Virus record (IMG/VR): IMGVR_UViG_3300023184_000082
Location: 1 to 64,000 of that record
DNA: 64,000 nt
Reading direction: 5' to 3' (one strand)
Source of the DNA: a virus
Part shown: in pieces, positions 13,101 through 45,977 of the stretch
How the letters are laid out: every line of letters begins with the position of its first letter
Numbering within the stretch: position 1 is the stretch's first letter
Notes under the pieces: model-generated
Database searches by the model: none
The model's input: only the letters and a program-made list of their open reading frames with translations
Told to the model about the DNA's origin: nothing
Translations under genes and position numbers: made by a program

Positions 13101-16100
13101 GAATGGTTCAAGGCCGTTGTTACGCGTGGTGGCCCGGTTGAACGGTTCGTTCGGGATAACCGAACAAGAACAAGTCAGCCAAAAACGCAATACAATGGAA
13201 CACCTTCTTGGATTGATGCCCATGAAATTGACTCCGGCGCCATGCCAGTAAAATTCTTGCCTTATTATCTTTTGAGCCAAGCCAAGGCCTCATTGAACCA
13301 AGGCAAGCCTCCAGAGCAATGGGAGGGTTGGGATACCATTGCAAGACCACAAATGAAAAGTCTGCTTCGCGGAGAAGAAGAACTGCGTCCATTGATAGAA
13401 AAACGTGAACAACTGGATTCAGAACAAAAAGCCTCAGCACTATATGGTCTTGAAACAGCACTTACATTGGATAGTACTGATAATCGCTACACGGGAGCCT
13501 TGGCGATTACTGCATTTGCGGGAACAGGAAAAACAAGAACCATCGTTCATCGCGTATCAGAACTGGTAAATCTTGGGTTCAATCCAAAAGAATTCTTTAT
13601 TGCAAGTTTTACAAGAAAATCTTCCCAAGACCTTCGGGACAAAATCAATAAGAATTTAATCGAAACCGGTTTTGGCGAAACCAGTCAAGGGGTAACAAAA
13701 GTAGCAGAAGGATTTGAATTTAATGCCCAACAAGTTCATACTTGGCATGGACACGCACTGTTCATGCTCAGGAATGATATTCCCGTGCCATCTGAGCTTT
13801 TGTCTCCCGGACAACAAAAATCTGGTCAACAACTTATTGATCTTTATACAACAGAAGTGTATGACAAGGCATCAAAAACTATCATTCATTACAAAAATGA
13901 ATTTTACACTGCAGACAACATAAGAGTTATAGATGATCAAAGACCTGAGGACAAAAATCTTCTTATGAGATTAATGAGAAGATCTTTTCGAGACTTGAAG
14001 TTGCCAACGTCCACAGTGAAAAATGGCAAGAGAGTATCAAGGCTGGATGATTTTCGTTCGTTTATTGATCAAGTAAAAAGCTTGGGAATAACTCCCGCAC
14101 AATATGAGCAACAACTTGATATTGCTGGGGAAACTGATATCCAGACACGTCATTTTTCAAAAGTATACGCAAGATATCAGGCGCTCATGGCAGAACAAGG
14201 CCTCGTTGATCAAACAGATTTGCTCAACATGGTTGTATCCATATTGAAAAGAAACCCAACAGTTCTATCGATGTACCAGCAAAAATACCGACAGTTCATC
14301 GTTGATGAGTACCAAGATCAAAACGGCGCACAGGAACAATTGCTGCAATTGCTTTCAGATAAAAAGAAAGGAGGATCAGGAAACGTTACGGTAGTTGGTG
14401 ATCCTAGGCAAGCAATTTATGGATGGCGCGGATCCACGCCGCAATACCTGAAAGATTTTGCAGATAACTATAAATACACAAACTCCAAGGGCGAGACCAT
14501 TGTTCCCGGGATGATGACCATCAAAACAAACTATCGGTCAACCGAAGAAATCGTCGACGTTGGGAATACCATCAGGGGAACAGATGAGTCTGGTTTTTCT
14601 CACGCAAAAATGCAAGCAAATCCAGCAGCACTCAAGGGATCTCCAGTAGAGATTGTTGCTTGTGATGATGAGAATTCTCAAGCAAATTTCATTGCAGATG
14701 AAATCAAGAGACTTGTTGGCAAAAATCACAGCGACACAATGACTCCAAAGATGGCATCGTCAGTTGACGAATCATTATCGACCCCCGCATATGGCGACAT
14801 GATGGTCGTAACCCGGCTTCTGTACCAAGCGCGAACCCTTCAGCGAGAGCTGCAATCAAGAGGAATTCCTGCAACCATTGATCATGGCGAATCATCAGTA
14901 TCATCATCAAGAGAAAGGACGATGAGCGTTCCTCAAATAATACGGGGACTCCTAGAATCAAGCAATGAAAAAGATTCCGCACATCTCAATGAGCTTGCTG
15001 ATATATTTTCACTTGCAAAAGACGCATTATCCAACAACGCGTCGTATGGTTCGTTGCCCGAAACGTCTCAGAATGGAAAAATTTCTGTATTGACAACCAT
15101 TGCAAGACTTCTAAAAAGAAATAATTCCACATTAAGATATGATCAAATGAACAAACTGCTGGCAGCCTACGACGTGACGATGGAAAATGCACAGACACGA
15201 AATGAAAAAGTATCTCTTATGAGATTCATATTGGACAATCAGGAAGAAAAACGTTTTTTTACCGCCGCACAATGGAGATCACTGAGCCCCGTTGCTGAAT
15301 CCATAGAAGCCAACAATGATGGGGAAGGAAGATCATTATCAAAGATACTCATGCATGCCATAGGTGAAACTTCATTGTTTGGAAAAAAATTAAGAAACAT
15401 AGCAAGCAAATCAATCATAAACAAGACATTTGATTCGACAGAGGTAAGAAAATTTCTTGCTGATTTGAACTTTGAAAATCTTTCAGTCGGACAAATACAA
15501 AGAAAAATTGATAATTTGGAGAACAGGCTCAATCAAATTTCCGACAAGAGAGTTGACGATCAAGAATTGGCGCAGAAAAAAATTCGACAGACAGGAAATG
15601 CTGTCCGCATCCTCACAATTCACGTTGCAAAAGGAACGGAAGCCCGAGTAGTTTTCAATGCTTATTGGAATGAAGGATCAATACCCATAGCAAGAAGTGA
15701 AAACAGGGGACCTGAATCAAGGCAAGAAGAAAGAAATCTTGCGTATGTTTCCTCAACTCGCGCAAAAGAAAGGAATTATTTTGTTTATCCAAAAAAGACA
15801 ATAACCAAGGCAAAATCTGTTCGTTCAGTAAATCCATCACGATTCATCGGAGAAATTCCAGAAAAAAATTCAAATTATTCCGAATATGAAAATGGCATAA
15901 GAACATACAAGCGTCATCCAAGCACAGATTTGGGTCAACAAATTGAGCAAATTGTTCAAGATCCATCAATGTTGCTGGAAAGTTTTGGCATAGAGCCAAC
16001 AAAAGATCTTGAAAATCTTGTTGACAAATTGCGCAGGATGTGGGCAGAGCCACAAGAGTCAACAGCGCCTTCGGGCGGGTCATTCCGACAAGTGTTGTTC

Positions 16101-16709
16101 GATGGCGTCCCTTTCCAGTCTCAATTCACGATCAATCCGTGGGGATCCCTGCCACAGGCAAACAGTGGAAATGTGCTAAATGGTCAATACGCAGGAGAGA
16201 CAGGCGCTGGTTCAACAGGAAATGTCACAAGGGTCAGAAACGTCCGAGGAACAGGAACGCCAGAGCCGGAAGAGACCGCAACGAGCAGGGCAATGGACAT
16301 ACTCACGGGACGTGTAAAAGCTACGGCAACAAAAGCCCGGGTTGCTCCTGCTCCGGCGGTAAATATCATCAAGGCAATCAAGGGTTCAATCCTAGATGAT
16401 TGGCATGCAGTGATATCAAGCGGAGAAGAACCCGATGTTCCCGATGCAATAGATCTCATTATCAAATACCTAAGCAAAAAGCCGCGCGATCAAAAAACAA
16501 TCCGACAACTATTTGATCTCCCGTCATACACCATGCCAAGCGACGAAGAACTTGGTGTGGGGGAGTGGTCGACTGATAAGGAGTATTGGGACGCTGTCCT
16601 CCAAGACGCGGCCCCAAATAATAATGAGGAAATGCAAAAGAAAATCGATGAGATTATAGAACAACTCACCAAGGAGAAAGGTGAATCAGCAAGCCCTCGT
16701 CTTGTGTGA
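4101..16709 (+). CDS. Giant 4202-aa protein with C-terminal UvrD-like SF1 helicase
   Basis: One uninterrupted 12.6 kb gene; the ATG follows GAGG with a five-base spacer. Residues 1-110 are Pro/Ala-rich and disordered. Residues 110-3100 contain many alpha/beta segments but no family I recognise. Residues about 3120-3900 carry the SF1A (UvrD/PcrA/Rep) helicase motifs in order: Walker A AFAGTGKTR at 3138, DEYQD at 3402, VGDPRQAIYGWRGS at 3432, TNYRS at about 3475, TIHVAKGTEA at 3839 and AYVSSTRAKE at 3881. All key residues (GKT Lys, DE, Gln, Arg) are present, so it should be an active ATP-dependent 3'-5' DNA translocase. A Pro/Gly linker and a 170-residue acidic helical tail follow. UvrD itself is about 720 aa, so this is a fusion six times larger. 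Size and setting suggest a virion-delivered polyvalent protein like P1 DarB; this is inference. Confidence 0.9.
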   Translation: MVVVFRKSEEGPSSRSVPLGFFGSSTPRRPAAPKVDVSPEPVAEPAAPPEARPESRHLPVEYIGNARGRRQASRVTGRGIAPPTNLAIAEALTKVRAKDGGPLGVSRYTGLAPDRLRVDDDADAITDLYKPGANQPVVLGATLNRVATAPGVFNLNPTMDTSIAGIQSANGDEIAPEINGNLVRVLRHHLHVESDGTTARLKHIDAPGAARVEALFPRLGPFGVHQARQEIEDSRTGAEGDQSGTSRMVLMPSENGFKFVRGLPPVVPGTDDFRDNGILHPAHTLGVPLFAGVAQGANNISGTKTSVTGKPQRDVYSTKPFLEEAQEVLSIIKAKTIELEKPTTTASERERLQAEITKLHSARQLMLNPDVAAGFRDALFAGSNQLGRRYIGLAPGVFGGPSSPQEWNSAEERKAAYATIESSRSMLSRGMHNGLFPFLHEDGMKRIFAKQSVDIDGKPAVNSEFFDVVGTRATLEVPVLPNTSHAPDAMKTHIVNASRLFAPIRATMDDSVLFLNPNDEQKGEYKPAYVVMTINSRSTSGKTTSLRILDDPRLRYRASTLASGLQSFSHWGVALTDQGAGHSRAITYWSQKLAETTRKLILQKGTSAQYDVFADPEIIEINKKLNAAKAAQIKTDTEVARRKDGKRPRGFKESIGTKENPIQLPMAGYGGLSSTPVPILDPKTEISGQLYAFNPLVPGQSISAISMHPSSVDNVTGLTESPWYRLQTDRKLTPSKDSEKLSQEVLSQESLAQSGLRALVISQGVDGYAMVLKSPDGHVIQAHGFQWSPAVLAVHPPIFRDKSGTTLPSGSLFGAAISNTVETFNRSVEEYGHIRRIQSQIIYDDDDKETEQADILGKAIEKREDPFALYRETPLWSPVFDKNGDPIPGQFEQSPNHNSLTMSDPGHYALDDFGVWRFFSGISSDTAMEYGIHNFPTKMMRGGVNHDAFYPHDVGGKSRWNRKTTRTTGVDESWPDRGGDSGWAVPGQRFSYDRFNGTPERYVLTGDAVRQYQIANPERRALSDRISREIYDLQMQRHSMASGRYTVIAQRERTKSTRKLGKYSEDTKKDWETVATKWATTTFMENIPTISSAENDPNRNSMPVAEFLAEGIKTFLCQDQQFIHHFSQNIEKPEIQEAIASVLCQKFGVASLEDLDAQTKELINTTMKEATSNATTIREKEEKDKDNEIEDLVITDLHGQDIVTGSYRLFSRPAKGAVHMPCALMDNDDKETILFFPRDPEDKNNLFLGMRAGNRIEWVDGKKVISNAIPENRGDHNSPIFIKSVSVTPNGSYCTLSKSQEMFSDELKAHIEQYNPTKTKTDGSLLVRISQDELVPILPSQIRPYDGFIEQHGEELPSSLFTNMLLSKKQRESAEKENNNETIREEIIRYLNNVATKRDPLQASGVDANGNIIPNERSGFLRKIGIDIGVEDSHYMFASMNPDDYTWIKESIPETIDLQDPMYYLASRITPNTTGSFNAIRKSRQSADQQDYNIQLWSLNNMQKVARALVVKRADAINGKYDVKSLVVPSKYTDDEDQEITLEADDDYKKIMQEDDDIPIEHLKDPNQAMQTLILALEMDAFRSITPHGKGGYDEKGNADSDGEYDEHGNHILEFIEIPKEITDISQNSAMKQFKDAYGYAISDQYIKLIGMNGLLSELLNSRNEETLSDLKSVHPEIGAMFEKALNISDRYAKTNDKEEKSRLRTEGLEISQDIVYAQMSDVFKRIKGYSALSPLQKLAFVELDNVGIVGNFNKLRMGVPKSSYQLDGTDVSDEQCQEAALVIHGLASSSVAGNHMANNKGLYRSDGTQKIEIMQHQINPDAFQAVFIKGKLTHVRALDYPEIDPKIRDLAKLSEQVAFKGNPSEAKLDEMIKIIADYPECQAELIKAKNTFMDRGELSRTDRLKIIQTVGVRLGLSPEDLPYGMLKNIKDNITTAMALTVASQAQMHAMWTHRKQEDQLTAGQEKPIKRPGLGVTLNALPLGLSGEHQALADHGHSDGSKIFDGTVPSVLPRPIHDNEQFLPADEEEKNLGRKTIALQDGRNFTKELLMPARLPQRRIVNGQIVNQLDAQSVFENLSASGVTVSLPTIDYENDIRTSPAAIRASMAGYASPRWSMLMLLGDDDEENSLIKKYLHVPQGVSAAQGGIGQKIWDRLIGGKALNGILVAGNIGLGKDEDVVNPVTKEKLMGSKRPLRIDGLDNELGRARTTSGVYLSFDPSPDNITYDEDKKQVTINQAVFTQVNKSRQGSFSRERKMNAPLVISWQVDNGQTKINMSDIRKKLYFFTQIIDDDTQQFVSDSQERLAIDKTGLATDIISIMPSHVERLMGIAKTESDRRIGVGIASFEDLFDEQHHALASAFRAMWEAPTSFDSIPGVAGAQRQKAIYDATGWTVSGPDQIKDAFLSPSFAAASSSSTWGTRGIVVGRTGHKDEGSNNDLAIVFVPMKPSEAVWFDATDHEDRAAKIREERLADQSEAMGHFRSLFHSIMTGSSHDPQKTVHEEKKKSPFWLYGKRWNISSSTEDGARFGRPFAAGPEAAALKAARTINAATKNPMTLGRFVLMRIDRNELNQIRNQDGTPSDALWVSLGDSTAAEHRNLLSDVTEKRNEYNRALTAAGISEVPRMSQIRTFSLESLSEQQQKILRARKAYEEWRSAKATLAAKSIQAHDEENLIIANPEKDIVASWDPKMTLTHESVAKMAPYMAYWLTQVAQLQGDSADIHYGKALDEIAKKRGLSEESKSIIDKLKSGILEKAETTQIAQGKQDLLPERHIPETMHKKSSEEWGIVEIPDFMLVPDHKILDRKVGFSTEKMIQVIDQLPIGLRNLISEKIQLAIISHNGASHEFPSIIDRTTPEPVYTWRDGNVIYASTIGIDPQNDFLNNLADIFAGEIWFPEEGKDRPEEKQTNIFGQSKNESYEKSKEYADAVVKYARSIRQQDNFDQMQPISRKWIESIIQWHENAMEQADEKVTQLYPGINEEDKESYMRNYALSKVALNLHREWFKAVVTRGGPVERFVRDNRTRTSQPKTQYNGTPSWIDAHEIDSGAMPVKFLPYYLLSQAKASLNQGKPPEQWEGWDTIARPQMKSLLRGEEELRPLIEKREQLDSEQKASALYGLETALTLDSTDNRYTGALAITAFAGTGKTRTIVHRVSELVNLGFNPKEFFIASFTRKSSQDLRDKINKNLIETGFGETSQGVTKVAEGFEFNAQQVHTWHGHALFMLRNDIPVPSELLSPGQQKSGQQLIDLYTTEVYDKASKTIIHYKNEFYTADNIRVIDDQRPEDKNLLMRLMRRSFRDLKLPTSTVKNGKRVSRLDDFRSFIDQVKSLGITPAQYEQQLDIAGETDIQTRHFSKVYARYQALMAEQGLVDQTDLLNMVVSILKRNPTVLSMYQQKYRQFIVDEYQDQNGAQEQLLQLLSDKKKGGSGNVTVVGDPRQAIYGWRGSTPQYLKDFADNYKYTNSKGETIVPGMMTIKTNYRSTEEIVDVGNTIRGTDESGFSHAKMQANPAALKGSPVEIVACDDENSQANFIADEIKRLVGKNHSDTMTPKMASSVDESLSTPAYGDMMVVTRLLYQARTLQRELQSRGIPATIDHGESSVSSSRERTMSVPQIIRGLLESSNEKDSAHLNELADIFSLAKDALSNNASYGSLPETSQNGKISVLTTIARLLKRNNSTLRYDQMNKLLAAYDVTMENAQTRNEKVSLMRFILDNQEEKRFFTAAQWRSLSPVAESIEANNDGEGRSLSKILMHAIGETSLFGKKLRNIASKSIINKTFDSTEVRKFLADLNFENLSVGQIQRKIDNLENRLNQISDKRVDDQELAQKKIRQTGNAVRILTIHVAKGTEARVVFNAYWNEGSIPIARSENRGPESRQEERNLAYVSSTRAKERNYFVYPKKTITKAKSVRSVNPSRFIGEIPEKNSNYSEYENGIRTYKRHPSTDLGQQIEQIVQDPSMLLESFGIEPTKDLENLVDKLRRMWAEPQESTAPSGGSFRQVLFDGVPFQSQFTINPWGSLPQANSGNVLNGQYAGETGAGSTGNVTRVRNVRGTGTPEPEETATSRAMDILTGRVKATATKARVAPAPAVNIIKAIKGSILDDWHAVISSGEEPDVPDAIDLIIKYLSKKPRDQKTIRQLFDLPSYTMPSDEELGVGEWSTDKEYWDAVLQDAAPNNNEEMQKKIDEIIEQLTKEKGESASPRLV

Positions 16710-17066: not shown

Positions 17067-20000
17067 ATGATTCCGGATAAAACAGGGGAGATTTTGTCGG
17101 CAGTCCATGCTCAAAAAACTGGCGGCATTCCAGATACCGCTGCACGTGGTGGGGGCTACATAGTTCAGCACAAACCTGACGTACCTCGTCCTGATGAACC
17201 AGGATCACTTGCATTGCCTCTTGTTGATCAGGCTCATGTGCGCAGTTCAGGAATGAGCGCTAGCGCAATAAGCAGTGATGTTGCAGATATTGGCACCATG
17301 CCGCCTTCTTCCCTGACGCATGGGTCGCCAATGATAACTGCAATGCAAACACCGCGGCAAACTGAACCAAAATGGACAGAAAATGGTCTTCAATATATCA
17401 TCAATGGGCAACCTGTAAATGTGCTGTCAAATGGTCAGGATTTGTCGGTGCAGCTTCCAACGGTTACCGGCGCTCCTACTGCACCTCTAGGCAAGCCTGA
17501 GGATGTATCGTCTCACTTGCTGTTTGATCCATCAAAAATTTCACGCAATTCAGGCGGATTGGATAATCTTACATCACAGCAGCTCGACCGTATAACTGCA
17601 TCGATAGGCGCACATGAGGCCAATCAAAAACTCTTGTTCGGGATACAGCGGATCTTCCGTGACGGAGGAAGGGATCCTGCTGCTGGGGAGCTGACACAGA
17701 AACAAAAAGATGATCAGCATAAAGACAAGAAATATGCCAGTCTTGAGCGAAAATACACAAAGGATGGACGCTTGCTTCTGGATGCATTGCCCCTTACAAC
17801 TCTCACATCGCTGGCAAGTACAGCCCGTGATCGCGCCAATGCTGCCTACAAGGCGTGGTACGAAAACTCAGGCCCACTTGAAGGAAAAGCAACAAAAGCC
17901 GATATCAATCAATTGCAACAAATGCGCATGTCTCGCAAAAAACAGTTTGAGTACGGTTTTGAGCCCGGCAATGGCATCATGCGGGTATTCACACTTGACG
18001 ACGGTCGAAAATTCTCCGAGCCAGTTATTCCCGGAAAAATATCCACCTCAAGGGAATTGCCTGATTCCGTGGATCATTTTTCCGGAGTATTATTTCCGGG
18101 AGATCTTGCTCAATCCGAAGACGAGTTGATAAAGTTTTTGGGCAATCCATCGTATCACCGCGATGCATCCGGAAAAACTGTTCTGGAAGCTCATAGCGAT
18201 GCGATGAGAGGCTTCATGGACAATCATCTTGAGCAAGGCATTTTCCCAATGTTGGGAGATAACCGACCAATTTCCAGAGAAACATCGCGTACACCTAGTC
18301 GTGCGGAAGGTATCGCCGGAGAAGAGTCTGCTGCGTCCAAGACTGCATTGGTCGAAGAGAGGGTTAAGGATGACTTTGCTCTTCTCATGGATGAAGTTGC
18401 CGAGAAAAGGGCTTCCATGGAGATTGCCCTGCAACAAATCCTTGAGACAATTGCATCGCCTACAGAAAAGTTGGATCTTCCTGAGATCTTTAAAAAAATA
18501 GAAGCCTTGGGCGACACTAAGCTTCCTGAAGCAAAAAAGTTGGAAGAAGAATCCATAGGCGTCCTTCAGCAACGTGAACTGCAGGAAAAAATACAGGCTA
18601 TCAAGTTTTCTGATGGAAAACCATTACGATTGGAAGATCTCATTTCCCCTGCTGTCGATTCCGACGGGAATTCACTTCCGGGTTCATTGCTTGTCAATAT
18701 GTCGACACATGGATTCATAGGAAAAACCGCGGCAACTCCTGGCGCGAGGCATCCACTAGCGTCTGTCGCAGCCATTGAGGCGCAAGCCTACAACACGGGA
18801 AGGATCAGCAAGGGACTTACGACACTTGATGCAGCCAAAGCACGTATTGATCCGGACAATCTCAAGAAAGAAAAAGATTTTGCCGAAAAAATCAAAGCCT
18901 ATTTACAGCAAGCAATGGAAGCATCTCTTCTCAAGTACCGAGCTGATACTCAGCAAACAATAAAAATCCCAACGTTACGTCAAAAAGTACCCCTCCCTGT
19001 TGACGCTGCAATGAAATTTCACAAAAAGCAATTATTTTCCGCACTGCAAATACCAGTGACGACAGGCGTGGATGTAAAAAAATACGCAATGAGACTGCCT
19101 CAGGACCAAGGATCCGAAAAATTAGTTCCAGTCATACGTCTTGTAGACCTCAGACCCGACGAATTTGTCGATCAAGTATCATCCTCAATTTTCAGCCGTG
19201 ATGAAGCAAATATTTTTGATACTAAATTAAGTGCTGCGTATGAAAATTTCTCAAGTGCCAAACAAAACATGCAGACGGTTTCAGGGCCCGAAAGCGAAGC
19301 GGCGGTTGCCAATGCACGACAAGGAATTGAGAATGTACTAAAAGAAAATCTTGTCTTGAATGAAACTGAAAGACAAAGCATAGAAAATATAATCGGAAAA
19401 GATGCCAGTCCATACATAAATCTTGTGAAAAAAGCTCTTCCTAAGGCATTGTTTGACTCATGGCTTGACAAAGTGAAAAATGGCAATTTTCTAGGCGCCC
19501 TGACAATCATGCGGGATCGACTTGACGCAAGTTCCACAAAAACCGCAGCACAACAAAAAATCAAGGCAGACCTTGCGGAGTACACAAGACAATTAAGAAA
19601 TGATGTTTCCTATTATATTCGATCAGAAGGCGAACAAAGCAAAACCCCTACGGGATTATTTTCGCCGAGAATCATTCGCGAAAAGTCACAGAAATTCACG
19701 CCGTATGAAGATTCTACGAATGCCGCATTGTTCAGAAAAGCATATCGGCAATCATTGATAAATTCAGATTCAACGTTATTGGATCCGCAATCATTCGATG
19801 ACGACAAAAGTCCGGAAATGGCAAAGTTTATTGATCAATACCCTCATGTGCTGGTTGATTCCGGACAAGCAGACATCAGGAGTTGGTTTTCCGAGTCAAT
19901 ACTCAATGCTGCAAAAGACAGGTTTCTTTCATATGAGATTCAACCCAAGAATCCATCAAATATTATACTCCAGTCAACGAGCGCTGCGCAGGAGGCGAGA

Positions 20001-23000
20001 AGCATCATTGACCACATGAGAAAAATGATCGATTACGAAGGTGAATTCCCGTTTGGCGTCCGTACAGATGATCCGAAATCCGATCACCCTTGGCATGATG
20101 CAGAGTGGCATCGAAGGTATACAGTTCCAGGAACCGAATACAAGGAAGACTTTTCAAAAACAGGAGAGTTTGCAACCGGACCTGATGGTTCTTTTGTGCG
20201 CAAAAAAATTAACGTAAAAAAAGACAAAATGCCGGATTACAAAACTGGAGAACTGAAACTTTGGGTACCTACCAAGCAACCTACCGCTGACGCACAAGGA
20301 AGAATGAAGTACGAAATCAGCAAGGAAGACGACATAAGTTTTCAACCTGAGAAGAGTCTTCTTACTGCGCGGGATTCTAATGGCCTCATGATACCGGTAG
20401 GATTGCCGAATGGCCTAGATGCAACACAGCTTCAAGGGTACTTCCCCAATCCAACATGGCAAGGTCTTGCAAGAACACCGAATGCTGTTTCAAAAACTTA
20501 TGCAGCGCCCATTCTTGCAGCCGTGTATGGCATCACTGGCGATTCTTCTTTTTCAAGGCACCCAGAGTCGCCAATAACCGACGCGGATCTTAAAAACAAA
20601 TTACAGGAAGGCATAAATACGTTAAAAAAAGATATCGATACGTACTATGCTAAAGCAACAAAATCTTCAACTGCCGATCCATGGAGACAAGCACGAGCTG
20701 ACATGATAGCCATGAGGACATCCAGAGCAGTAGGTTCAGGATCACAGGACATCCTCAAGAAAATTCTTTCTGTGCTGTCAGTAAATAATGAGGAAATCAT
20801 GAAGGCCATTGAAGAAAAATATCCCAGAGCTGAACAGTGGCTACCCGAACATGTCAAAGATTTCGAGCTTCTTGCTCAGCTTAACATGCGTTTGTCTGGA
20901 AGCAAAGATGGTAGTGCACCCTCCATGGAAAATATTTTCTCGGGCGATATTCCATCGTATTTTTATCCTGGAAATGACAAGGAAGAAAACGGAAAAGATG
21001 CAGACTGGGTAAAAATGGCACTGGATGTCAAGGCGGATTTGCTGAAAAAATATGCGATACCGGAATTGCCACCCAGTTCCGAAGTGTGGCATGAAATTTC
21101 TCTTGCTTCTGCTGGACAATTGGTGGCGGACGCCGAAAAAAGAATACAGTTTATTAATGAAATCCAAAACACACCGAGATTGCAAGGAGAAATTGCTACT
21201 GCAATCAATGAGGCCAAATCGGAAATTGATCAAGCAACATCAAGGTCCCAGCAACAGCAAGCGGTTATGCGTCAACCATTGGATATTGCAGCGCATTCAA
21301 GAGACGTTCTGGATAGATGCATCGCTGAAAAGGTCATGCCATTTGATATATCAAGTTCCCTGTATCCTGACCAAATGAGAGGGAGCGGAAGTCCGGTGGC
21401 ATTTTACGCTTTGGGCGACACTGATGCAATAGATTCCCACAACATGATCCATATCGCCTCAGACCCATTGGCGGTCAGATACAATCCTTCCGCGACATTG
21501 AATGAAGCGGGAGAAGCAATTGACTCCATATCAAGATTGCTTTTGTCAAGGAAATCAGGAAATTCACCCGCAAATGCAGGGTTGCCGCTTCGAACACGCA
21601 AGCAACATCAAAAAGATCATGTTCAATCCATGATTGCAGAAATGAAAAAAATATATGATATGACTTCAGGGGACAAGAATCCTTTGTATGACATCATAAA
21701 TGAGATAAATCCCCATGTTGCACCAATTCTCAAGTTGAGCAGCGATCATTTTGACACGCCAGATTGGGAAACCAAATTCCTGAATGCCCTTGATGCCTAT
21801 TGCAAAGCGCAGGACATATCGATGATAACTCCTGCTGATGAACATTATCCATCTCGATTGCTTGCCATGCCGGAATCATGGCAGTTCAAAACAGAACAAG
21901 GCTCCATGATTTCGCATGTTCCAAAAATGATATTTGTAAAGGGAAACATTGAAAAATTCAAACAAAAAAAATTCGATCTTGACAGGACTGTTGCATGCAT
22001 TGGCACGGCAAAGTTAAAAGAAGGCGACCCTCTCGATGCAGAAGTGGCGCAGATTGCAAAAAATACCATACAGCAACTGGCAAAGGACAACTGGATAATT
22101 GTATCTGGAATGGCGAAGGGAATTGATAGCATTTGTCACGGTCAGGCGCTGGAAAGCGGAACGGCAACCATAGGAATATTGCCTCATGGAATCACCTCGA
22201 CACCGGGCGCCTCACAAGCAGAACTCTACAAAAGGATGACGGACCCCAAAGGAATGGGGGTTGTGATGACCGAGTATCTTCCGGGGATGCAAAATTACGG
22301 ATCCACAGAAGGAAGTACCGTAAAACAGAACTTGCACAGGAACAGACTTCAGGCAGGACTATCAATTGCAACAGTCATGTTTTCCTCGACAGCCAGACAA
22401 AATTGGATCAAGGAAAACATGGGTGAATACCAGATACAAGCCAATGAAAATGGACTCCTCACAGAAAGAGACATTGAAGACGCCGGTTCAATGGCAACCC
22501 TTCGGCATTCGTTATATCAAGCAAGAAGAAATTTTGTCCTTGATCCATCCAGCATCGTTGATTCTAATAACAATCTCATTTACAAGGACATGGATCTATC
22601 AAAAGGCGTCATGACGGGAAACTTCGAGGCAATGGAGAATCTCAACGCAACGAGTTTTAATGCATTAGAGATATCAGGATTGATCGATAACCTGAATATC
22701 GCCTACGCAACTCGAAATGAACCCAAAAGAACATTTATTGGAGATGGAGCAAACGCTGAACGAGTCCTTACAAACCTTGGAATGACCCAATCCCCTGATG
22801 AAACCAACGAGTCGTTTTTAGACAGGGTAACACAAGAAATAATGAAGAAGATTGCAGCAAAGGATGCTGATACCAAGGCGGTATTGAAAAAAATTTCAGA
22901 CTCATACAATCCGGACGGATCCACCAAGAAATCAATTGTCATTTATGCTCCTGATGAAAATGATGCAAGCTTGAAGCAATTGATCATGGCTCGCGAAATG

Positions 23001-26000
23001 GGAATACCGACCGTTGTTGTTCCGGCAAAGGTAAACTACTCCAAGACAAAGATGGCCGACGAATATGATGAAAATGGAGAACTCACAAGAATAAATTCAC
23101 TCAAGGACTGGGCTCCATTAAAACCAGATACTGTTCACGCACAAAAGGATGAACTGACCGCCACATTGAAGGGAAGCACATACACATTTGGATCGGCGGA
23201 AGCGCTCTATTATGCCTTTTTGTATGAGAATCCGGAAGACATAAGCAGCATTTCAGATCTTTCAAAAAGACAGCAGGGAATGAACGAAATCAGGAGAAAA
23301 GCAAAACAGGATCAAGAGGCAGGAAGAATCCTTGAACTCACTCGTGACCAGAAAGTTTCAAGGATGTATGATGCTCTCAAGATAAAATTCAGCAATAAGA
23401 ATTATGCTAACGTCCTTGCAAAGACCGGAAATGCCACTATTGTGCACGAAAGTCCTGACGCATTCTGGGGCGTCATTGGGGATAGTTCACCCAAGAATCA
23501 AGCAAGCATCGGAACTGGGGCAAATGTCGTTGGTAAATTGCTCATGTTCATTCGCGATCAGCAAAGATCCAATAGCAACACATTGACTCCCAATGAAATC
23601 AGAAGCATGCACTCCACGCAGGAGAATTGTCAAATTCCTTGGAACAAGGCGCTGCCATTTTTTGGCATGTATGCCCAAGATGTGGATTCATCAAAAATAA
23701 CTTCATTGAGTAATGAGCCTCTTCGTGTGGGAATTACCGGATCAAGGGAAGGCTTGACCAGCAGCATGATAGAGGCTGCCTTGCGCGGATCACTCAAGAT
23801 GAATTCTGGCAGCCGCTTGATAACGGAAGATGCAACTGCTGCTCTAGGTCTTTCCGATTTTGAAAAACGAATGGGCATAAAAAGACAAGCGGTAAGCTCG
23901 AATTCGGCGACCAGAAAAATCACCCCTTTGTCTTTCGTGCATGGAGGCGCAAAAGGAGCGGATTCTCAGGCAATAAACTACATATTGTCAAACGTAAAAA
24001 GATTTGCCATTGATGGAATTGAAAATTCCATAACGGAAATACCATTTGATGCCATGTCTTCAGACGAAAAGGATTTTCAAGATGGCACGGCTGGCAACAG
24101 AAGAAACTCGAAAATCGTGGCGAATTCCGATGTTCTCATTGCAATCTGGGACGGGAAAAGCAGAGGCACCATGCATGCCGTCATGACGGCAATACAGCAA
24201 GGCAAGCCTGTTCATCTTTGGTCACCTGACGGGAGAGGAGGCATGAAACTTCAGGAGATATACCCATCCAGCAAAGGAAACATGTCCGTTATTTCCCCTT
24301 CGGATCCATCTCCCAGGGAAAACTCCACACTAAGCATCGCCCAAGATGAACATCCATCACATATTCGCACCTCCACATTGAATCTTGCGGAAAAATTGCG
24401 CACACAGACCTTGACATTGGGAGTAAGTCATGATTCTCCATACATGAGAGGAATTCGAGGAAGCCTGGTCAACTCCGTGAGGCCAAAATCAGTAAGCATC
24501 ATGTATTCTCCTGCTCCGTATTCTGCCCAAGAACCAAGTGACGATTTTGCTGTGCCTCGCGGTCATTATCGTGGAGATCATGAATTATTTCACGGAAGAA
24601 TTCACAAGGGTGCGACAAGATACGGTGATCGCGCTTTGCCGGTGGATAGTCCTGACAGTTGGGAATCATTTTCTGGTTTTGAACAGAAAACACCGCTTCA
24701 AAAAAGAATTGAAAAAATGGCGAAAGAACGAGCAAGACAAGAAGAAGTAGATTCGTTGTCACTCGGAGGCGCAAAAGAAAAGGTTTCGTCAACACCGGGG
24801 ATGGAAGCTATTGCCATGGCAGTAAGGGGGAACAACAGGGCTTCAAGATACGCATCGGTTGCATCGCAAAATCCCTCGGCTGAAACGTCAGCGTGGCTCG
24901 ATGAGTACAACAATGAAAATCCAAAGTTCTTTTCTCCCGAATCAGACAGCGGAAAAAGAATGGCAAAATCAACCTCGCGATCAATGGTTATAAAAAATGA
25001 TCTTTTCCCGAATTTGTTCGCAAAAGTGTCGATTTCCTTTGCTGACAATGAAGCTTTGGGAAGGAGCAGGGATCAGCGCGAATTCAATCAAGCGACGGCA
25101 AAGTTCCACGTGATGTTGTTTCACAGACAACAGCAAACTGATGCATCTGGAAAACCAGCAGATCCATTGATAGTTCCTGTTGGAAGCCTCGTGTATGAAG
25201 TGCCAAGATCTCCTGCGCTTACAAGTCTTTCCGCATCAAGAACTGATTCAGGAAGAGGTGTGTTCGGCGAAGGATACATGAACTATCAACGAGTCATAAG
25301 CATGCTAGCCACAGATGTGGCTAGCAATCTCCTTGCATCCCATCAGGCAACGTCAATTCATCAGGAATTGACCAGACATGCAAGTGGGCTTTCAACCTTG
25401 CTGCAGAACAATGCAAGATATCAGGAATTGAAGAAAAAGAGGGATCGGACAGCAGAAGAAACGTCCGAAATGAAATTGCTGGACGCAAGTCGTAAAAAAC
25501 TTGGCACTATTGGCATACCCTTGACTACAGCACCGCAATCTCACGGTCTTGCCACATTGAGGACAAGACAGGAAGACAATCTTGGCGACTTCATTCATAC
25601 ACATCTTTCATCCACAACATTGCAGCCGAGCTTGCTGCCCACAGCCAGAGGAACAGTAAGTGATCGTCTATCTAGTGCACGAGATCTTTCCCAGTACGAT
25701 CCCATTAAAATACCGATAGAGCAGATCAATGAGTACATCGAGAGCCTTCGTGCACACACACAAACCATTGGCTCCCGAGAAGCGTGGCCTCCTGCGCCTG
25801 CGTTGGAAAGCATAGGGCAAACTACCAGAAGAAACAAGCAATTATCTGCAAATCCCAACATCAGATATCAAGCATCACATCAGCAGAGAGGAAGTTCCCC
25901 TCAGTCCGGAATGCTGATGTTATTCAAGGCTCTTGGTGGGGAGGTAAAAGCCGCTGCAGACCATACTCCTCTCGACAAGGATCGCGGAATATATGGAGAC

Positions 26001-29000
26001 GCAACCAGATTGACGGGATTGGCCGGTATTAATCAATTATCATCTCGAAAAATGAATGTAAACGCTGTAGCCTTGCTTTTTGGTTCGCTTCTTTGGGACA
26101 AAACACAAAGAGGACCCTTTGCCACTTTGCAAAATCCAGAAACAAGCACACTTTATCACCTTATTGCTACTCCTTCGAATTCCAGCACAATCAAGTATGA
26201 TGGCAATTTTATGAAACTCTTGCAACAGGGAAGAATTTTCAATTCGCTGAAAAATGTACAGGCCGGGACAATGTCTGCTGACAATTTTCAAGAAAATGTT
26301 GTTTTCAAGAATAACATGTCAGATGTTCAACTTTGGCATGATATTCAAATTGCTGATCTTTTATCAAGCCAAACCAACATGTCTGATGGACTCAGAAATG
26401 TGGCAAACGACATATTGACAGAGATAGGTGGTAAAAAAACACTGCTGGATGGCAAATACACTCGTGATGGAGTAGCAACAAATCCTGTGGTGGTCTCGTT
26501 GGCCACAAGATGGGCGATGTTTCGTGACAATCTTTTCTGGATGGGAAGAGATGCAAATTTTTCTCAGGATTCATACGCATTAAAAGATGATGTACGGAGA
26601 AGAATGGCAGAAGCGACAAAGGTCTTGGGTGGCTCGGCTCCTGCGCTTCTGCTTGCGGGACATGTTGCCGAGAATTCAGATGCGTTTTCGCACATGAATA
26701 ATTCCTTGGCGGGAAAAATGCAGGAGACTATCAAGAGAATGATGTCCCAAGGCAGCAAGGGACCAAGAAGCTTGTACGAAACGCTATCTGATTTGAAGGA
26801 TTCCATTTCCCGCGCAAAAAGCAATTTTGTTTTCTTGGAAAATATCAGACATGATGGCCAGGAAAACATGATAAAGATGCGTCCATTGGCTTCATCAAAT
26901 GGAGTACAGACAGATCCGCTTGCAGTATCCATCAAGAAATCCTTGGGAATCTCAGCAGGAACTACGTTACTTACGTTACCGGCATATCTGTCGTCAGCAT
27001 TTGACCTGATTGCGTCGTTGGATATTTCGTTTGGGGCGGTAAAAAGGAAAATCGGCTTTGAGTCAACGATTGCAAATATCTCAAAATCAAATATTGTAGA
27101 TCAATCAGGCATAACGGAATCCAAAGATACAAAGTTTGTCTTTGTCCCAGGATCCGTATGGCAAGCGACCAAGATGCCCTTTGATGGAATGAAAGATACA
27201 CAAGGAAACCTTGTCGTTCCCAATAAACTAAATCCGACTGCCTATGCTCTGGTTGCATCTCGACATCAAGAAATAAACAGGATATTTTTTGGGCTGACAG
27301 GAGGAAAATCATCCGATCAGGAGTTGATTGACGAAAGCGCTCTTTTTTCTAGTGATCAAAAAAACGAACCTCAAGACAGAAGCGCTTCCCATTATGTATA
27401 TATCGGAACGCCGATGGGCAAACAAATTGACGAAGGTCTTGGGGTATTGAATGCCAATGAAAAAGAAAGAATGGCTGAATACCAAAAAGCGGTCGCAATT
27501 GCTATCGGGCATGCAGCAAACATAAAGGGAGCGACCAGACTGCCATCCAATGCCCAATGGTTTCTTCCAAGTGATTCATCAACATTCAAGATTATGCAGT
27601 CGCAAAATAAGGATATCTTTGAAAAGATCGCTCTCGATGCAATATCCGGAGGAGCTCAAGGATCACTGTCCAGCGAGAAGGATTTGCGAGATAGGCAAAT
27701 ACGGGCACTCGTCTGGGCAAGAATGTATATCAATGCAATCCATGAAGCCAAGAGGGACGAAGAAATCAAGACTGCGGAAAAAAATTCGCCATCACCATAT
27801 ACAGTGCATGCTCCAGAGGAAGCATCGTTATTCAAGGATTTTGGCGATGAGGATAAAAAGCTTGCGCAAGATTGTTCTTTCATCAAAATACGCGCCCTTC
27901 AAGATGCATCAATCGATTCGACATCTGAAGCATTGACGTACAGAGACGTTGTTCCAACTTCACTTTCAACACCTTCCCCAACCATTTCCGATTCCAATAG
28001 TGTCCGCAGCATGACAACGAGGATTTTTACGCTTGAATCAGAGATTCAAAAGGTAAAGCGTGACTTGGAGATGCCCCTGCTGAGCGCAGCAACCAAAAGA
28101 GATCTTGAAGCAAAGAAGAAGGAACTAACCGATACTCTGTCCAAGCAAGTCGATGTTCGCGCCGCAACAATACGCGCGTCAATGACCACTGAAGAACTGG
28201 CAATCGTTGCAGACAAGAAAAAAATGCTTGATTCCATGGATGAGATAATGAATGACGAAAATGAATGGGAAGCTTTTGATGATGCAGTCGATAGCGCAGA
28301 AAAACTCAGAAACGTTGATCCTGAGAACCCTGATTTCTTTACCGAAATCACGCACAGTCCTGAGGTTCTTGACATAGATTTTGAAAATCAGGATTCCATA
28401 GATGAGGCGGCATCTGCGCTTGAACAAGGGCAATTGTATTTGCAAAAAGCACTTCCTGTTCTAGCGGCGTACAAGGACACATTAGCGCAACTTCAATCAG
28501 ATGAGGATTATCCTATTCCATCGTATTCTCTTGACAACTCACTTGCTGGAAGCGGGAAAAAGAACATTTCCTATTTCCAATGGTATGAAAATCTTGACGA
28601 CCATCAGAAATCAAGTTCTCAAAAAAATCTCATGAGAAGATATGTGGCTCTCTTGGAATCTTCATTGCTACGACAATTTTTTATCAATGAGCAACTCAAG
28701 AAGGCAACCGGAGATGGACAAAAGTTTACAGTTGCCAGAATGACCAATTATTTCGATGAGTCTTCCGCGTTGCGCAAACGAGAAAAAGATCGCAATGCAT
28801 TCATTGAACAATTGACACCAAATGAGTCAATGCTATTGGGAAGTCCGCGAGTGAGCAAAGTTTTTGGTGAAAATCCTCTCAGCGAACCGACCGTTGATAC
28901 ATTGTCAATAAAACAACTGAAGGGAATAAGCAGGGGTGGGACATCCATTGAAGATGCCATTTCAAAAGAGCAGGTCATTCCTGTAACTAATGCGATAATA

Positions 29001-29885
29001 GATTTCATGACATATCATTGGAAGCCAGTCAATGTCGGACTGGATACGAATATATTGGGCGAACTGTTTTCTTGGGGATCGCCATTATTTACGTATTTGA
29101 AGAAAAACGGCGACCAGTCGTTATTCTGCATAGACGCAACGTCAGGTTCATCTATTTCATTTTCTTCTTCACTGCTCAAGAAGAGAGATGAAATAGTTGC
29201 GGACATTGCGCTTACCAAAGAAAACGTCAGGAGTGGGAATCTGACGCCAGATGAGGAGATTGAGTCAACACTGAAGCTGGAAAGACTTGAACAAGACAAG
29301 AAACGAATCATTGAAGCGATCAATGACGAAACCACCAAGACAAACCTCATTGAAAAAGCATTCAATGCGTTTCGCTTGGAGGCAAGGGAGGCATACCAAT
29401 GCATCTCTTCCGGATCAGAAGCGTTCAACGGAAAACTTTCCTTGGACTTCTGGAGAGATCAGTTCATCGATCTCAAGGCACCAAGGGCCATTCAAATACA
29501 GTCAGCAACGGGAGAACCAACAAAGCAATTCACAAAACACGCGTGGCCACAATCGGAACGCAGGAAAATGGCGCGATCTGCCCAGCAGAAATCATCAACA
29601 ATGACGGAGTCCATACAAATAAGAGCCGCAACGGATTTCCCGCCGCTGAAGCCAGAATCCTTCAGCGCTTGGGCGACGGAGCTGAGCGCGGGGCAGCAAG
29701 ATCCCGACAGCGTTGACACGCAGATGGAGGTTTTCAAGACAAGGCTGCGAAAATCATTCGGAATCGTGTACCATGTTCCGAAGACACGGGCTCCAAAACC
29801 GCCCCCTCGGCAGGCGCAGTTGCATAAGAGCCGCAAGGTTACATTCTTTGTCCGCAAGGCAGCATTTGACAGCAAAGGCAGGTAA
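17067..29885 (+). CDS. Giant 4272-aa protein with DprA, NADAR and YspA-type SLOG domains
   Basis: A single 12.8 kb gene; the ATG is seven bases after AAGGA. Three linked domains stand out. A DprA/Smf-like domain (about residues 1590-1830) has HYPSRLLAMPESW, PKMIFVKGN, SGMAKGIDSICHG at about 1680, IGILPHGI and HRNRLQAGLS. A NADAR/YbiA-like domain (about 2035-2170) has TYTFGSAEALYYAF, the long helix pair, then HESPDAFWG and GANVVGKLLMFIRDQQ. A second SLOG domain of YspA/DUF2493 type (about 2215-2385) has GITGSREG, HGGAKGADSQA at 2292 and AIWDGKSRGTMHAVM at 2359. SLOG folds bind nucleotides or DNA. NADAR enzymes act on ADP-ribose conjugates, including ADP-ribosylated guanine in DNA. The flanking roughly 1600 and 1850 residues are unrecognised and mostly helical. 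It is probably a phage polyvalent protein that counters NAD/ADP-ribose or DNA-directed defences; the domain calls are strong, the function is inferred. Confidence 0.9.
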   Translation: MIPDKTGEILSAVHAQKTGGIPDTAARGGGYIVQHKPDVPRPDEPGSLALPLVDQAHVRSSGMSASAISSDVADIGTMPPSSLTHGSPMITAMQTPRQTEPKWTENGLQYIINGQPVNVLSNGQDLSVQLPTVTGAPTAPLGKPEDVSSHLLFDPSKISRNSGGLDNLTSQQLDRITASIGAHEANQKLLFGIQRIFRDGGRDPAAGELTQKQKDDQHKDKKYASLERKYTKDGRLLLDALPLTTLTSLASTARDRANAAYKAWYENSGPLEGKATKADINQLQQMRMSRKKQFEYGFEPGNGIMRVFTLDDGRKFSEPVIPGKISTSRELPDSVDHFSGVLFPGDLAQSEDELIKFLGNPSYHRDASGKTVLEAHSDAMRGFMDNHLEQGIFPMLGDNRPISRETSRTPSRAEGIAGEESAASKTALVEERVKDDFALLMDEVAEKRASMEIALQQILETIASPTEKLDLPEIFKKIEALGDTKLPEAKKLEEESIGVLQQRELQEKIQAIKFSDGKPLRLEDLISPAVDSDGNSLPGSLLVNMSTHGFIGKTAATPGARHPLASVAAIEAQAYNTGRISKGLTTLDAAKARIDPDNLKKEKDFAEKIKAYLQQAMEASLLKYRADTQQTIKIPTLRQKVPLPVDAAMKFHKKQLFSALQIPVTTGVDVKKYAMRLPQDQGSEKLVPVIRLVDLRPDEFVDQVSSSIFSRDEANIFDTKLSAAYENFSSAKQNMQTVSGPESEAAVANARQGIENVLKENLVLNETERQSIENIIGKDASPYINLVKKALPKALFDSWLDKVKNGNFLGALTIMRDRLDASSTKTAAQQKIKADLAEYTRQLRNDVSYYIRSEGEQSKTPTGLFSPRIIREKSQKFTPYEDSTNAALFRKAYRQSLINSDSTLLDPQSFDDDKSPEMAKFIDQYPHVLVDSGQADIRSWFSESILNAAKDRFLSYEIQPKNPSNIILQSTSAAQEARSIIDHMRKMIDYEGEFPFGVRTDDPKSDHPWHDAEWHRRYTVPGTEYKEDFSKTGEFATGPDGSFVRKKINVKKDKMPDYKTGELKLWVPTKQPTADAQGRMKYEISKEDDISFQPEKSLLTARDSNGLMIPVGLPNGLDATQLQGYFPNPTWQGLARTPNAVSKTYAAPILAAVYGITGDSSFSRHPESPITDADLKNKLQEGINTLKKDIDTYYAKATKSSTADPWRQARADMIAMRTSRAVGSGSQDILKKILSVLSVNNEEIMKAIEEKYPRAEQWLPEHVKDFELLAQLNMRLSGSKDGSAPSMENIFSGDIPSYFYPGNDKEENGKDADWVKMALDVKADLLKKYAIPELPPSSEVWHEISLASAGQLVADAEKRIQFINEIQNTPRLQGEIATAINEAKSEIDQATSRSQQQQAVMRQPLDIAAHSRDVLDRCIAEKVMPFDISSSLYPDQMRGSGSPVAFYALGDTDAIDSHNMIHIASDPLAVRYNPSATLNEAGEAIDSISRLLLSRKSGNSPANAGLPLRTRKQHQKDHVQSMIAEMKKIYDMTSGDKNPLYDIINEINPHVAPILKLSSDHFDTPDWETKFLNALDAYCKAQDISMITPADEHYPSRLLAMPESWQFKTEQGSMISHVPKMIFVKGNIEKFKQKKFDLDRTVACIGTAKLKEGDPLDAEVAQIAKNTIQQLAKDNWIIVSGMAKGIDSICHGQALESGTATIGILPHGITSTPGASQAELYKRMTDPKGMGVVMTEYLPGMQNYGSTEGSTVKQNLHRNRLQAGLSIATVMFSSTARQNWIKENMGEYQIQANENGLLTERDIEDAGSMATLRHSLYQARRNFVLDPSSIVDSNNNLIYKDMDLSKGVMTGNFEAMENLNATSFNALEISGLIDNLNIAYATRNEPKRTFIGDGANAERVLTNLGMTQSPDETNESFLDRVTQEIMKKIAAKDADTKAVLKKISDSYNPDGSTKKSIVIYAPDENDASLKQLIMAREMGIPTVVVPAKVNYSKTKMADEYDENGELTRINSLKDWAPLKPDTVHAQKDELTATLKGSTYTFGSAEALYYAFLYENPEDISSISDLSKRQQGMNEIRRKAKQDQEAGRILELTRDQKVSRMYDALKIKFSNKNYANVLAKTGNATIVHESPDAFWGVIGDSSPKNQASIGTGANVVGKLLMFIRDQQRSNSNTLTPNEIRSMHSTQENCQIPWNKALPFFGMYAQDVDSSKITSLSNEPLRVGITGSREGLTSSMIEAALRGSLKMNSGSRLITEDATAALGLSDFEKRMGIKRQAVSSNSATRKITPLSFVHGGAKGADSQAINYILSNVKRFAIDGIENSITEIPFDAMSSDEKDFQDGTAGNRRNSKIVANSDVLIAIWDGKSRGTMHAVMTAIQQGKPVHLWSPDGRGGMKLQEIYPSSKGNMSVISPSDPSPRENSTLSIAQDEHPSHIRTSTLNLAEKLRTQTLTLGVSHDSPYMRGIRGSLVNSVRPKSVSIMYSPAPYSAQEPSDDFAVPRGHYRGDHELFHGRIHKGATRYGDRALPVDSPDSWESFSGFEQKTPLQKRIEKMAKERARQEEVDSLSLGGAKEKVSSTPGMEAIAMAVRGNNRASRYASVASQNPSAETSAWLDEYNNENPKFFSPESDSGKRMAKSTSRSMVIKNDLFPNLFAKVSISFADNEALGRSRDQREFNQATAKFHVMLFHRQQQTDASGKPADPLIVPVGSLVYEVPRSPALTSLSASRTDSGRGVFGEGYMNYQRVISMLATDVASNLLASHQATSIHQELTRHASGLSTLLQNNARYQELKKKRDRTAEETSEMKLLDASRKKLGTIGIPLTTAPQSHGLATLRTRQEDNLGDFIHTHLSSTTLQPSLLPTARGTVSDRLSSARDLSQYDPIKIPIEQINEYIESLRAHTQTIGSREAWPPAPALESIGQTTRRNKQLSANPNIRYQASHQQRGSSPQSGMLMLFKALGGEVKAAADHTPLDKDRGIYGDATRLTGLAGINQLSSRKMNVNAVALLFGSLLWDKTQRGPFATLQNPETSTLYHLIATPSNSSTIKYDGNFMKLLQQGRIFNSLKNVQAGTMSADNFQENVVFKNNMSDVQLWHDIQIADLLSSQTNMSDGLRNVANDILTEIGGKKTLLDGKYTRDGVATNPVVVSLATRWAMFRDNLFWMGRDANFSQDSYALKDDVRRRMAEATKVLGGSAPALLLAGHVAENSDAFSHMNNSLAGKMQETIKRMMSQGSKGPRSLYETLSDLKDSISRAKSNFVFLENIRHDGQENMIKMRPLASSNGVQTDPLAVSIKKSLGISAGTTLLTLPAYLSSAFDLIASLDISFGAVKRKIGFESTIANISKSNIVDQSGITESKDTKFVFVPGSVWQATKMPFDGMKDTQGNLVVPNKLNPTAYALVASRHQEINRIFFGLTGGKSSDQELIDESALFSSDQKNEPQDRSASHYVYIGTPMGKQIDEGLGVLNANEKERMAEYQKAVAIAIGHAANIKGATRLPSNAQWFLPSDSSTFKIMQSQNKDIFEKIALDAISGGAQGSLSSEKDLRDRQIRALVWARMYINAIHEAKRDEEIKTAEKNSPSPYTVHAPEEASLFKDFGDEDKKLAQDCSFIKIRALQDASIDSTSEALTYRDVVPTSLSTPSPTISDSNSVRSMTTRIFTLESEIQKVKRDLEMPLLSAATKRDLEAKKKELTDTLSKQVDVRAATIRASMTTEELAIVADKKKMLDSMDEIMNDENEWEAFDDAVDSAEKLRNVDPENPDFFTEITHSPEVLDIDFENQDSIDEAASALEQGQLYLQKALPVLAAYKDTLAQLQSDEDYPIPSYSLDNSLAGSGKKNISYFQWYENLDDHQKSSSQKNLMRRYVALLESSLLRQFFINEQLKKATGDGQKFTVARMTNYFDESSALRKREKDRNAFIEQLTPNESMLLGSPRVSKVFGENPLSEPTVDTLSIKQLKGISRGGTSIEDAISKEQVIPVTNAIIDFMTYHWKPVNVGLDTNILGELFSWGSPLFTYLKKNGDQSLFCIDATSGSSISFSSSLLKKRDEIVADIALTKENVRSGNLTPDEEIESTLKLERLEQDKKRIIEAINDETTKTNLIEKAFNAFRLEAREAYQCISSGSEAFNGKLSLDFWRDQFIDLKAPRAIQIQSATGEPTKQFTKHAWPQSERRKMARSAQQKSSTMTESIQIRAATDFPPLKPESFSAWATELSAGQQDPDSVDTQMEVFKTRLRKSFGIVYHVPKTRAPKPPPRQAQLHKSRKVTFFVRKAAFDSKGR
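25304..25325. repeat. 22-bp near-perfect palindrome inside the second giant gene
   Basis: GCTAGCCACA at 25304-25313 and TGTGGCTAGC at 25316-25325 are perfect reverse complements separated by only GA. It lies within coding sequence and encodes an ordinary helix segment. A site of this shape fits a dimeric protein-binding site, or a chance event in a 12.8 kb gene. Confidence 0.5.
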
Positions 29886-30533
29886 ATGGTGGAAACCAGC
29901 AAAAACAGCGCCAACGGATATGGGCATTGGGCCATTCAAGTCAACGGAATGCCGCTTTATGTTTCGGGAGATTTCTCTTCCCTGCATCCTCATCATGCCC
30001 TTTCGCGTCAGAAAACAAACATCAAGGGCGCCAAGGCGACCAAAATGCACGGATTAGCCGCGCAACACGACATCAAGGATGTTATCATTATCAACGGAGA
30101 AGATGTTCCACACAACAATGTCGGGAAGCTTTCTCAGTTGATACGAAAGATACTGAAGAAAGAATCCCGAACCGTCAGGACATCATCAAGGAAACCCAAG
30201 GAATATGACATGTCATTCCCGAACACCACATTGACGGGAACGACGCATGAGTCATCCGGCGGAATCCTGTTTGTAGTTTCTGATGCAAATAATCATCCCG
30301 TAATGATCACAAAGAGACCTTCAAGCATCAAGGATATTGAGGGAGCATTGCTTACCGATGTGTCTGAGTATCTTGCCCATGAACAACATCGGGCTGCGTG
30401 GTTTGTGCATCATGACATGAGCAATGACATTCGACATGCTCCTGATCATATTCTCCCCGATCACTCTCCATTGGCTTGCTGGCCATGTCACAAAGGAAAA
30501 ATGATATGGCGTTATCCTTCTGCCATACGGTAG
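29886..30533 (+). CDS. Hypothetical protein, 215 aa
   Basis: The ATG directly abuts the stop codon of the second giant gene, which suggests translational coupling. The N-terminus (YGHWAIQVNGMPLYVSGDF) has beta-strand character. Residues 60-100 contain a strand-turn segment (KDVIIINGEDVPHNN) followed by a basic helix. The C-terminal half is rich in His (EQHRAAWFVHHDM) and ends in a CWPCHKG cluster, a possible metal site. I recognise no family. It sits between two giant polyvalent-type genes. Confidence 0.7.
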   Translation: MVETSKNSANGYGHWAIQVNGMPLYVSGDFSSLHPHHALSRQKTNIKGAKATKMHGLAAQHDIKDVIIINGEDVPHNNVGKLSQLIRKILKKESRTVRTSSRKPKEYDMSFPNTTLTGTTHESSGGILFVVSDANNHPVMITKRPSSIKDIEGALLTDVSEYLAHEQHRAAWFVHHDMSNDIRHAPDHILPDHSPLACWPCHKGKMIWRYPSAIR

Positions 30534-45954: not shown

Positions 45955-45977
45955 GAAAGAAAGAAGGAGGATCGAAA

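Follow-up and report, generated by a model that had tools for sequence, protein, structure and literature searches.

The stretch of DNA analysed here (the window) comprises bases 1-64000 of the 79,891-base virus record IMGVR_UViG_3300023184_000082, and judging from its genes the virus is a tailed phage with a contractile tail. Upstream of the head and tail genes lie two giant open reading frames (ORFs) of 4,202 and 4,272 amino acids (aa), closely packed on one strand. We focus on the second of these (17067-29885; this ORF, its domains, the cassette ORFs and the head and tail genes are all on the + strand), which is preceded by an AAGGA site resembling a ribosome-binding site. Several unrelated domains were found within this single phage protein using Pfam and PHROG, among them, in this order, a DprA-like SLOG domain, a NADAR domain and a second SLOG domain of the YspA/YpsA type. 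A sequence-only reading of the window had placed three such domains at about this position, and Pfam, PHROG and leave-out profiles all support the placement, as does the same order in a 4,486-aa homologue (locus L047) from a related phage. No match to the NADAR or YspA profiles was found in 20 shuffled copies of the giant, and the array and the rest of the ORF have nearly equal G+C contents.

The second SLOG domain (aa about 2217-2415, 23715-24311) was delimited using phrog_289, motif alignment and AlphaFold. PHROG_289, a YspA-like SLOG family, matched aa 2269-2395 (window 23871-24251, E 2.7e-17), and a profile of 62 stand-alone phage YspA ORFs, with the giant excluded, found the domain at E 1.1e-18. 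It carries the motifs GSR, GGAKGAD, AGNRRN and AIWDGKSRGT, and every motif common to 18 aligned stand-alone phage YspA proteins is kept. Indeed, an AlphaFold model of aa 2001-2430 returned a confident SLOG fold here, with core blocks near 90 in predicted local distance difference test (pLDDT) score, so that the proposal of a second SLOG domain with GSR and GGAKGAD held for both motifs and structure. The top structural match in VIA-align was B. subtilis YpsA (2nx2; Z 11.2, root-mean-square deviation 3.0, 133 aligned residues), molybdenum-cofactor carrier proteins and DprA gave Z 10-11, and the named top matches in a viral structure library were YspA-type SLOG proteins. The SLOG domains of ThsA scored below YpsA and DprA (Z 8.8), and a link to Thoeris, which the sequence-only reading had suggested, thus received no specific support. 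The domain shares the GSR, GGAxGxD, AGxxRN and IWDGKSxGT motifs and the fold with YpsA/YspA (DUF2493-type) phage proteins but, unlike the stand-alone members, it is internal and has long loop insertions. The YspA ORFs in 62 other viral contigs are all short (about 115-263 aa) and stand-alone, which sets the two array-bearing giants apart.

The DprA-like domain (aa 1579-1775, 21801-22391) matched Pfam PF02481 (DNA_processg_A) with 102.8 bits (E 1.9e-29) and TIGR00732 at E 5e-22. It has in common with DprA/Smf and ShosA a Rossmann SLOG core with intact VSGMAKGID and RNRLQAGLS motifs (SGMAKGID and RNR..AGLS in those proteins), but it is embedded in a giant chain, its GSR is replaced by GTAK, and the Pfam match reaches only position 165 of the 212 in the profile, an insertion breaking up the remainder. 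To call it a complete DprA was therefore an overstatement; it also scored below the NCBI dprA equivalog cut-off (78.2 bits versus 191.15). AlphaFold modelled aa 1545-2028 poorly (mean pLDDT 46.9), and the Foldseek list for this model was not used as evidence. Since the models of the DprA and NADAR regions are poor or of low confidence, we base both identifications on sequence profiles.

The NADAR domain (aa 2036-2165, 23172-23561) scored 41.8 bits with Pfam PF08719 (cut-off 35.1; E 1.8e-10), and a leave-out profile built from four other NADARs, with the giant excluded, found it at E 2.8e-13. Of the 163 profile positions the match leaves out the first 31, beginning at position 32, and the N-terminal part is therefore missing. 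In the model of aa 2001-2430 the C-terminal half of the domain was of low confidence, and no NADAR chain was among the structural matches listed. Its active site was examined in an alignment with YbiA, Listeria phage A511 gp50, the NADAR of a 485-kb phage and the NADARs of two related phages described below, G001 and G004. The first conserved Glu (E88 of E. coli C7, E43 of the P. nicotianae protein) is kept as E2045, and W2134 is also kept. The Lys seven residues further on (K95/K50), which the characterised enzyme needs for activity, is L2052 in the giant and Arg in G001, and the catalytic Glu/Asp position (D171 of C7) is H2127 and likewise His in G001, giving the three-residue sets E,L,H for the giant, E,R,H for G001 and E,K,E for G004. 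The NADAR domain proposed from an ESPD-FWG core is present, but the Glu of ESPD (E2128, Gly in G001) is the residue after the catalytic position, and E2045 is the only one retained of the three residues important in E. coli C7 NADAR.

These substitutions bear on what the domain may do. In E. coli C7 NADAR, E88, K95 and D171 all matter, and a K95R variant is active in vitro yet no longer protects cells (PMC11543638). At the position of D171 the YbiA family has Glu and phage NADARs have His (PMC11543638, PMC11125620), and the giant has in its last strand neither the Glu of the YbiA subfamily nor the Asp of the DarT1-linked BC4488 subfamily, but the His that marks the phage (gp30.3) subfamily. 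T4 gp30.3, a His-type NADAR, acts on guanosine-ADP-ribose (guanosine-ADPr) in vitro (PMC11125620), and therefore His alone does not imply inactivity. However, gp30.3, which shares this His and the NADAR fold with the giant, is a stand-alone protein of 152 aa that keeps the Lys, whereas the giant's domain has Leu and a missing N-terminus. Because this essential Lys is missing, hydrolysis of guanosine-ADPr by the giant appears doubtful. Reversal of DarTG had also been suggested, but of the NADARs tested, those of E. coli C7 and EPEC were the only ones to rescue cells from DarT1 (PMC11125620). With the acid changed to His, the Lys to Leu and the N-terminus missing, reversal of DarT1 as proposed seems unlikely from these alignments, and a counter-enzyme against DarTG or Thoeris is only a possibility.

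A search with the capsid protein recovered 13 related viral contigs. The full array was present in one of them, IMGVR_UViG_3300043446_005775 (G001), whose giant, the 4,486-aa homologue named above, has the same domain order and is 34% identical over the array segment, against 75% for the capsid protein; the giants thus diverge much faster than the capsid. Measured per 100 aa, identity between the two giants is 38-50% over aa 2101-2400 and 42% over aa 1901-2000, compared with mostly 15-33% (sliding identity) for the bulk of the protein. Between the DprA-like and NADAR domains, a linker block (aa 1930-2020, 22854-23126; KSIVIYAPDENDASLKQLIMAREMGIPTVVVP...DWAPLK) is among the best-conserved stretches at about 42% identity. 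It matched no known family and likely forms one beta-alpha-beta unit, as read from a low-confidence model. A further conserved block (aa 3290-3600, 26934-27866) lies in the C-terminal third and is 39% identical to the relative, and profiles of the giant's N- and C-terminal parts found nothing convincing in the PDB. A zincin-like HELFH motif at aa 2505 was dropped as a candidate, being absent from the relative.

In the same place, a third phage, G004 (184 kb), a more distant relative, encodes a 2,222-aa protein in which a good DprA domain is present but no NADAR or YspA domain, which suggests that DprA is probably the older part of the giant. Its NADAR resides in a separate 849-aa protein (L030:2595-5144, - strand), in which the canonical E, K and E are kept and another region matches a DarG macro profile (E 3.9e-6), although Pfam sees only the NADAR. 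As in the giant, NADAR is here linked to another ADP-ribose domain, but in a separate gene, with canonical residues and with a DarG-like macro region taking the place of a SLOG domain. ADP-ribose handling therefore recurs in this phage group. Viral contig scans with the whole array, the NADAR or the C-terminal block returned only G001 or nothing, DprA-only scans returned nothing, and the array scan of genome contigs returned one stand-alone Clostridium DprA, the scan patterns being short and missing distant relatives. Among annotated phages and plasmids, no record covered 80% of the array segment.

The giant belongs to a gene cassette whose order is the same in three phages: a UvrD-helicase giant, the DprA giant, a protein of 215-221 aa and an HD protein of about 1,300 aa, with the head genes next. 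In the window, the upstream 4,202-aa giant (4101-16709) carries, towards its C-terminus, a UvrD/SF1 helicase (aa 3130-3896, window 13488-15788, Pfam E 4.7e-47) and has a homologue in locus L019 and a 2,566-aa version in locus L028. The 215-aa ORF (29886-30533) has 221-aa homologues in two relatives (44% and 32% identity). It is followed by a 1,316-aa ORF (30548-34498) with an HD domain at aa 886-972 (Pfam HD E 1.8e-4; PADLOC Cas3-HD E 3.6e-5), the HD motif of which is kept in the three phages. Resembling Cas3-HD, this protein is conserved over its full length in both relatives that have a DprA giant. Protease, capsid and sheath genes lie beside the cassette in all three phages; in the window they are those of a head maturation protease (43440-44423, phrog_1028, E 4.2e-32), the major capsid protein (45978-47873, phrog_752, E 3.6e-40) and the tail sheath protein (50123-53437, phrog_279, E 1.7e-47).

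Polyvalent proteins are multidomain proteins whose injection along with the DNA is predicted; phages usually encode them near virion genes, and they join unrelated activities (PMC5512222). The giant resembles them in its very large size, its unrelated activities in one chain and its position beside late virion genes, and the cassette partners (the UvrD giant and the HD protein) and adjoining capsid genes fit a packaged polyvalent protein. The main text of PMC5512222 does not name NADAR or SLOG and mentions DprA only in passing, and packaging is something we infer for the giant. Phage SLOG and NADAR domains are known to occur together and to be fused, and ADP-ribose derivatives are their predicted targets, within a predicted NAD/ADP-ribose conflict biology (PMC9503650, PMC7824862); YAcAr-SLOG is fused to NADAR or Macro in phage proteins (PMC7824862, PMC9503650), and SLOG-NADAR-Macro architectures have been reported in viruses (PMC9503650). 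Such fusions join a YspA-type SLOG to NADAR just as the giant does, but the giant is 4,272 aa long and has DprA as well, and PMC9503650 calls viral NADAR and SLOG proteins typically stand-alone. No description of DprA, NADAR and YspA in one chain was found in the open-access literature or annotated records searched. Hence the claim of novelty appears to stand for the exact triple in the searchable literature, but not for multi-tool proteins or NADAR-SLOG fusions, which were already known. Three nucleotide- or ADP-ribose-type folds are present in one phage protein, but of the defence targets proposed, DarTG was not supported and Thoeris not specifically so.

We favour, at a probability of about 0.45, the explanation that the giant is a virion-linked polyvalent protein whose DprA part is old and whose NADAR-YspA pair, specific to this lineage, would blunt NAD/ADP-ribose-based defence. 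The steps that we infer, from packaging and injection to ligands, catalysis and defence target, are as follows. The giant would probably be made alongside virion proteins, be packaged, and enter the host together with the DNA. Its base function would probably be the handling or protection of phage DNA soon after entry, as DprA sits in a cassette with the UvrD giant, the 215-aa protein and the HD protein. The NADAR-YspA pair would have joined the older DprA part in this lineage; the YspA domain may bind or cleave a ligand of the ADP-ribose or nucleotide type, and the NADAR with its altered site may bind, or slowly cleave, an N-glycosidic ADP-ribose bond. Together they could blunt a host defence acting on signals or on incoming DNA.

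Several observations weigh against this explanation. The full array is limited to one relative, and Pfam found no ADP-ribosyltransferase, Macro or Nudix domain in the two giants. In the G001 giant, SGMAKGID reads TSLTGGTND, so the DprA site is not kept throughout. The NADAR residues of characterised enzymes are altered, and the domain may therefore not be an enzyme. Finally, four other relatives that share the capsid genes and have long contigs (G003, G008, G009 and G012) gave no clear match to the cassette except for 65 aa of the HD part in one of them, although these contigs are fragments and absence is thus not proven.

The strongest competitor, to which we give a clearly smaller chance, is that the giant is mainly a DNA-transaction factor, a recombination mediator or DNA-end protector, in which DprA binds single-stranded DNA (ssDNA), UvrD and HD process DNA, NADAR removes ADP-ribose from guanines of incoming DNA and YspA is a nucleotide-sensing regulator. 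The DprA motifs are intact in the present phage and in G004, the UvrD and HD partners occur in three phages, DprA is retained in jumbo phages, where it has been proposed as an additional ssDNA-binding protein (PMC7824862), and the in vitro activity of gp30.3 on guanosine-ADPr would suit such a role; but the DprA motif is degraded in G001, the K95 equivalent is Leu, and the DarT1 rescue was confined to C7 and EPEC. Somewhat less probable still is a non-catalytic array (the NADAR and perhaps the SLOGs) serving as a binding platform or sponge for ADP-ribose-type signals, which it would sequester. The changes of Glu/Asp to His and of Lys to Leu and the missing N-terminal part of NADAR would agree with this, as would a phage anti-Thoeris family whose members degrade or sequester signals (PMC13232231). 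However, the fully kept YspA motifs could be catalytic, and the His is usual in phage NADARs, which retain in vitro activity (PMC11125620). We consider it rather improbable that a DNA-binding DprA, a repurposed His-NADAR and a catalytic YspA form, in one virion-delivered chain, a single ADP-ribose-processing unit at the entering DNA that clears NAD-derived signals or adducts.

There is very little to recommend mimicry by the DprA-like domain of DprA-type antitoxins (ShosA/PsyrA), neutralising the host toxins ShosT/PsyrT. The domain does match the PADLOC models of ShosA (E 8.6e-36) and PsyrA (1e-12), and ShosA is among its PDB matches, but an ordinary stand-alone bacterial DprA used as a control (L117) scored higher on the ShosA model (E 2e-68). 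That match does not therefore single out ShosA, and a ShosA identity was rejected. Chance motif matches or an assembly fusion are refuted by the significant profile scores, with none in shuffles, and by the same architecture on the independent contig of G001, which rules out an assembly accident.

If the giant is indeed delivered with the DNA, as the favoured polyvalent-protein explanation has it, counter-defence against NAD/ADP-ribose systems would set in ahead of all phage gene expression, and the three domains would lend themselves to testing as a single unit. The comparison with G004 suggests that a NADAR-YspA pair was added to an older DprA slot in the giant, whereas a relative has its NADAR elsewhere, with a macro region, so that the two phages offer a natural comparison for how phage tools are assembled.

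Two further features of the window were seen. An open frame of 521 aa (44461-46026, - strand) runs antisense to the ORF preceding the capsid gene, and a 519-aa antisense frame occupies the equivalent position in G001; the 521-aa frame is probably a by-product of codon use. A 1,147-aa protein (record 62396-65839, of which 62396-64000 falls within the window) extends past the end of the window, and its C-terminal approximately 125 aa are found again in several further proteins of the related phages.

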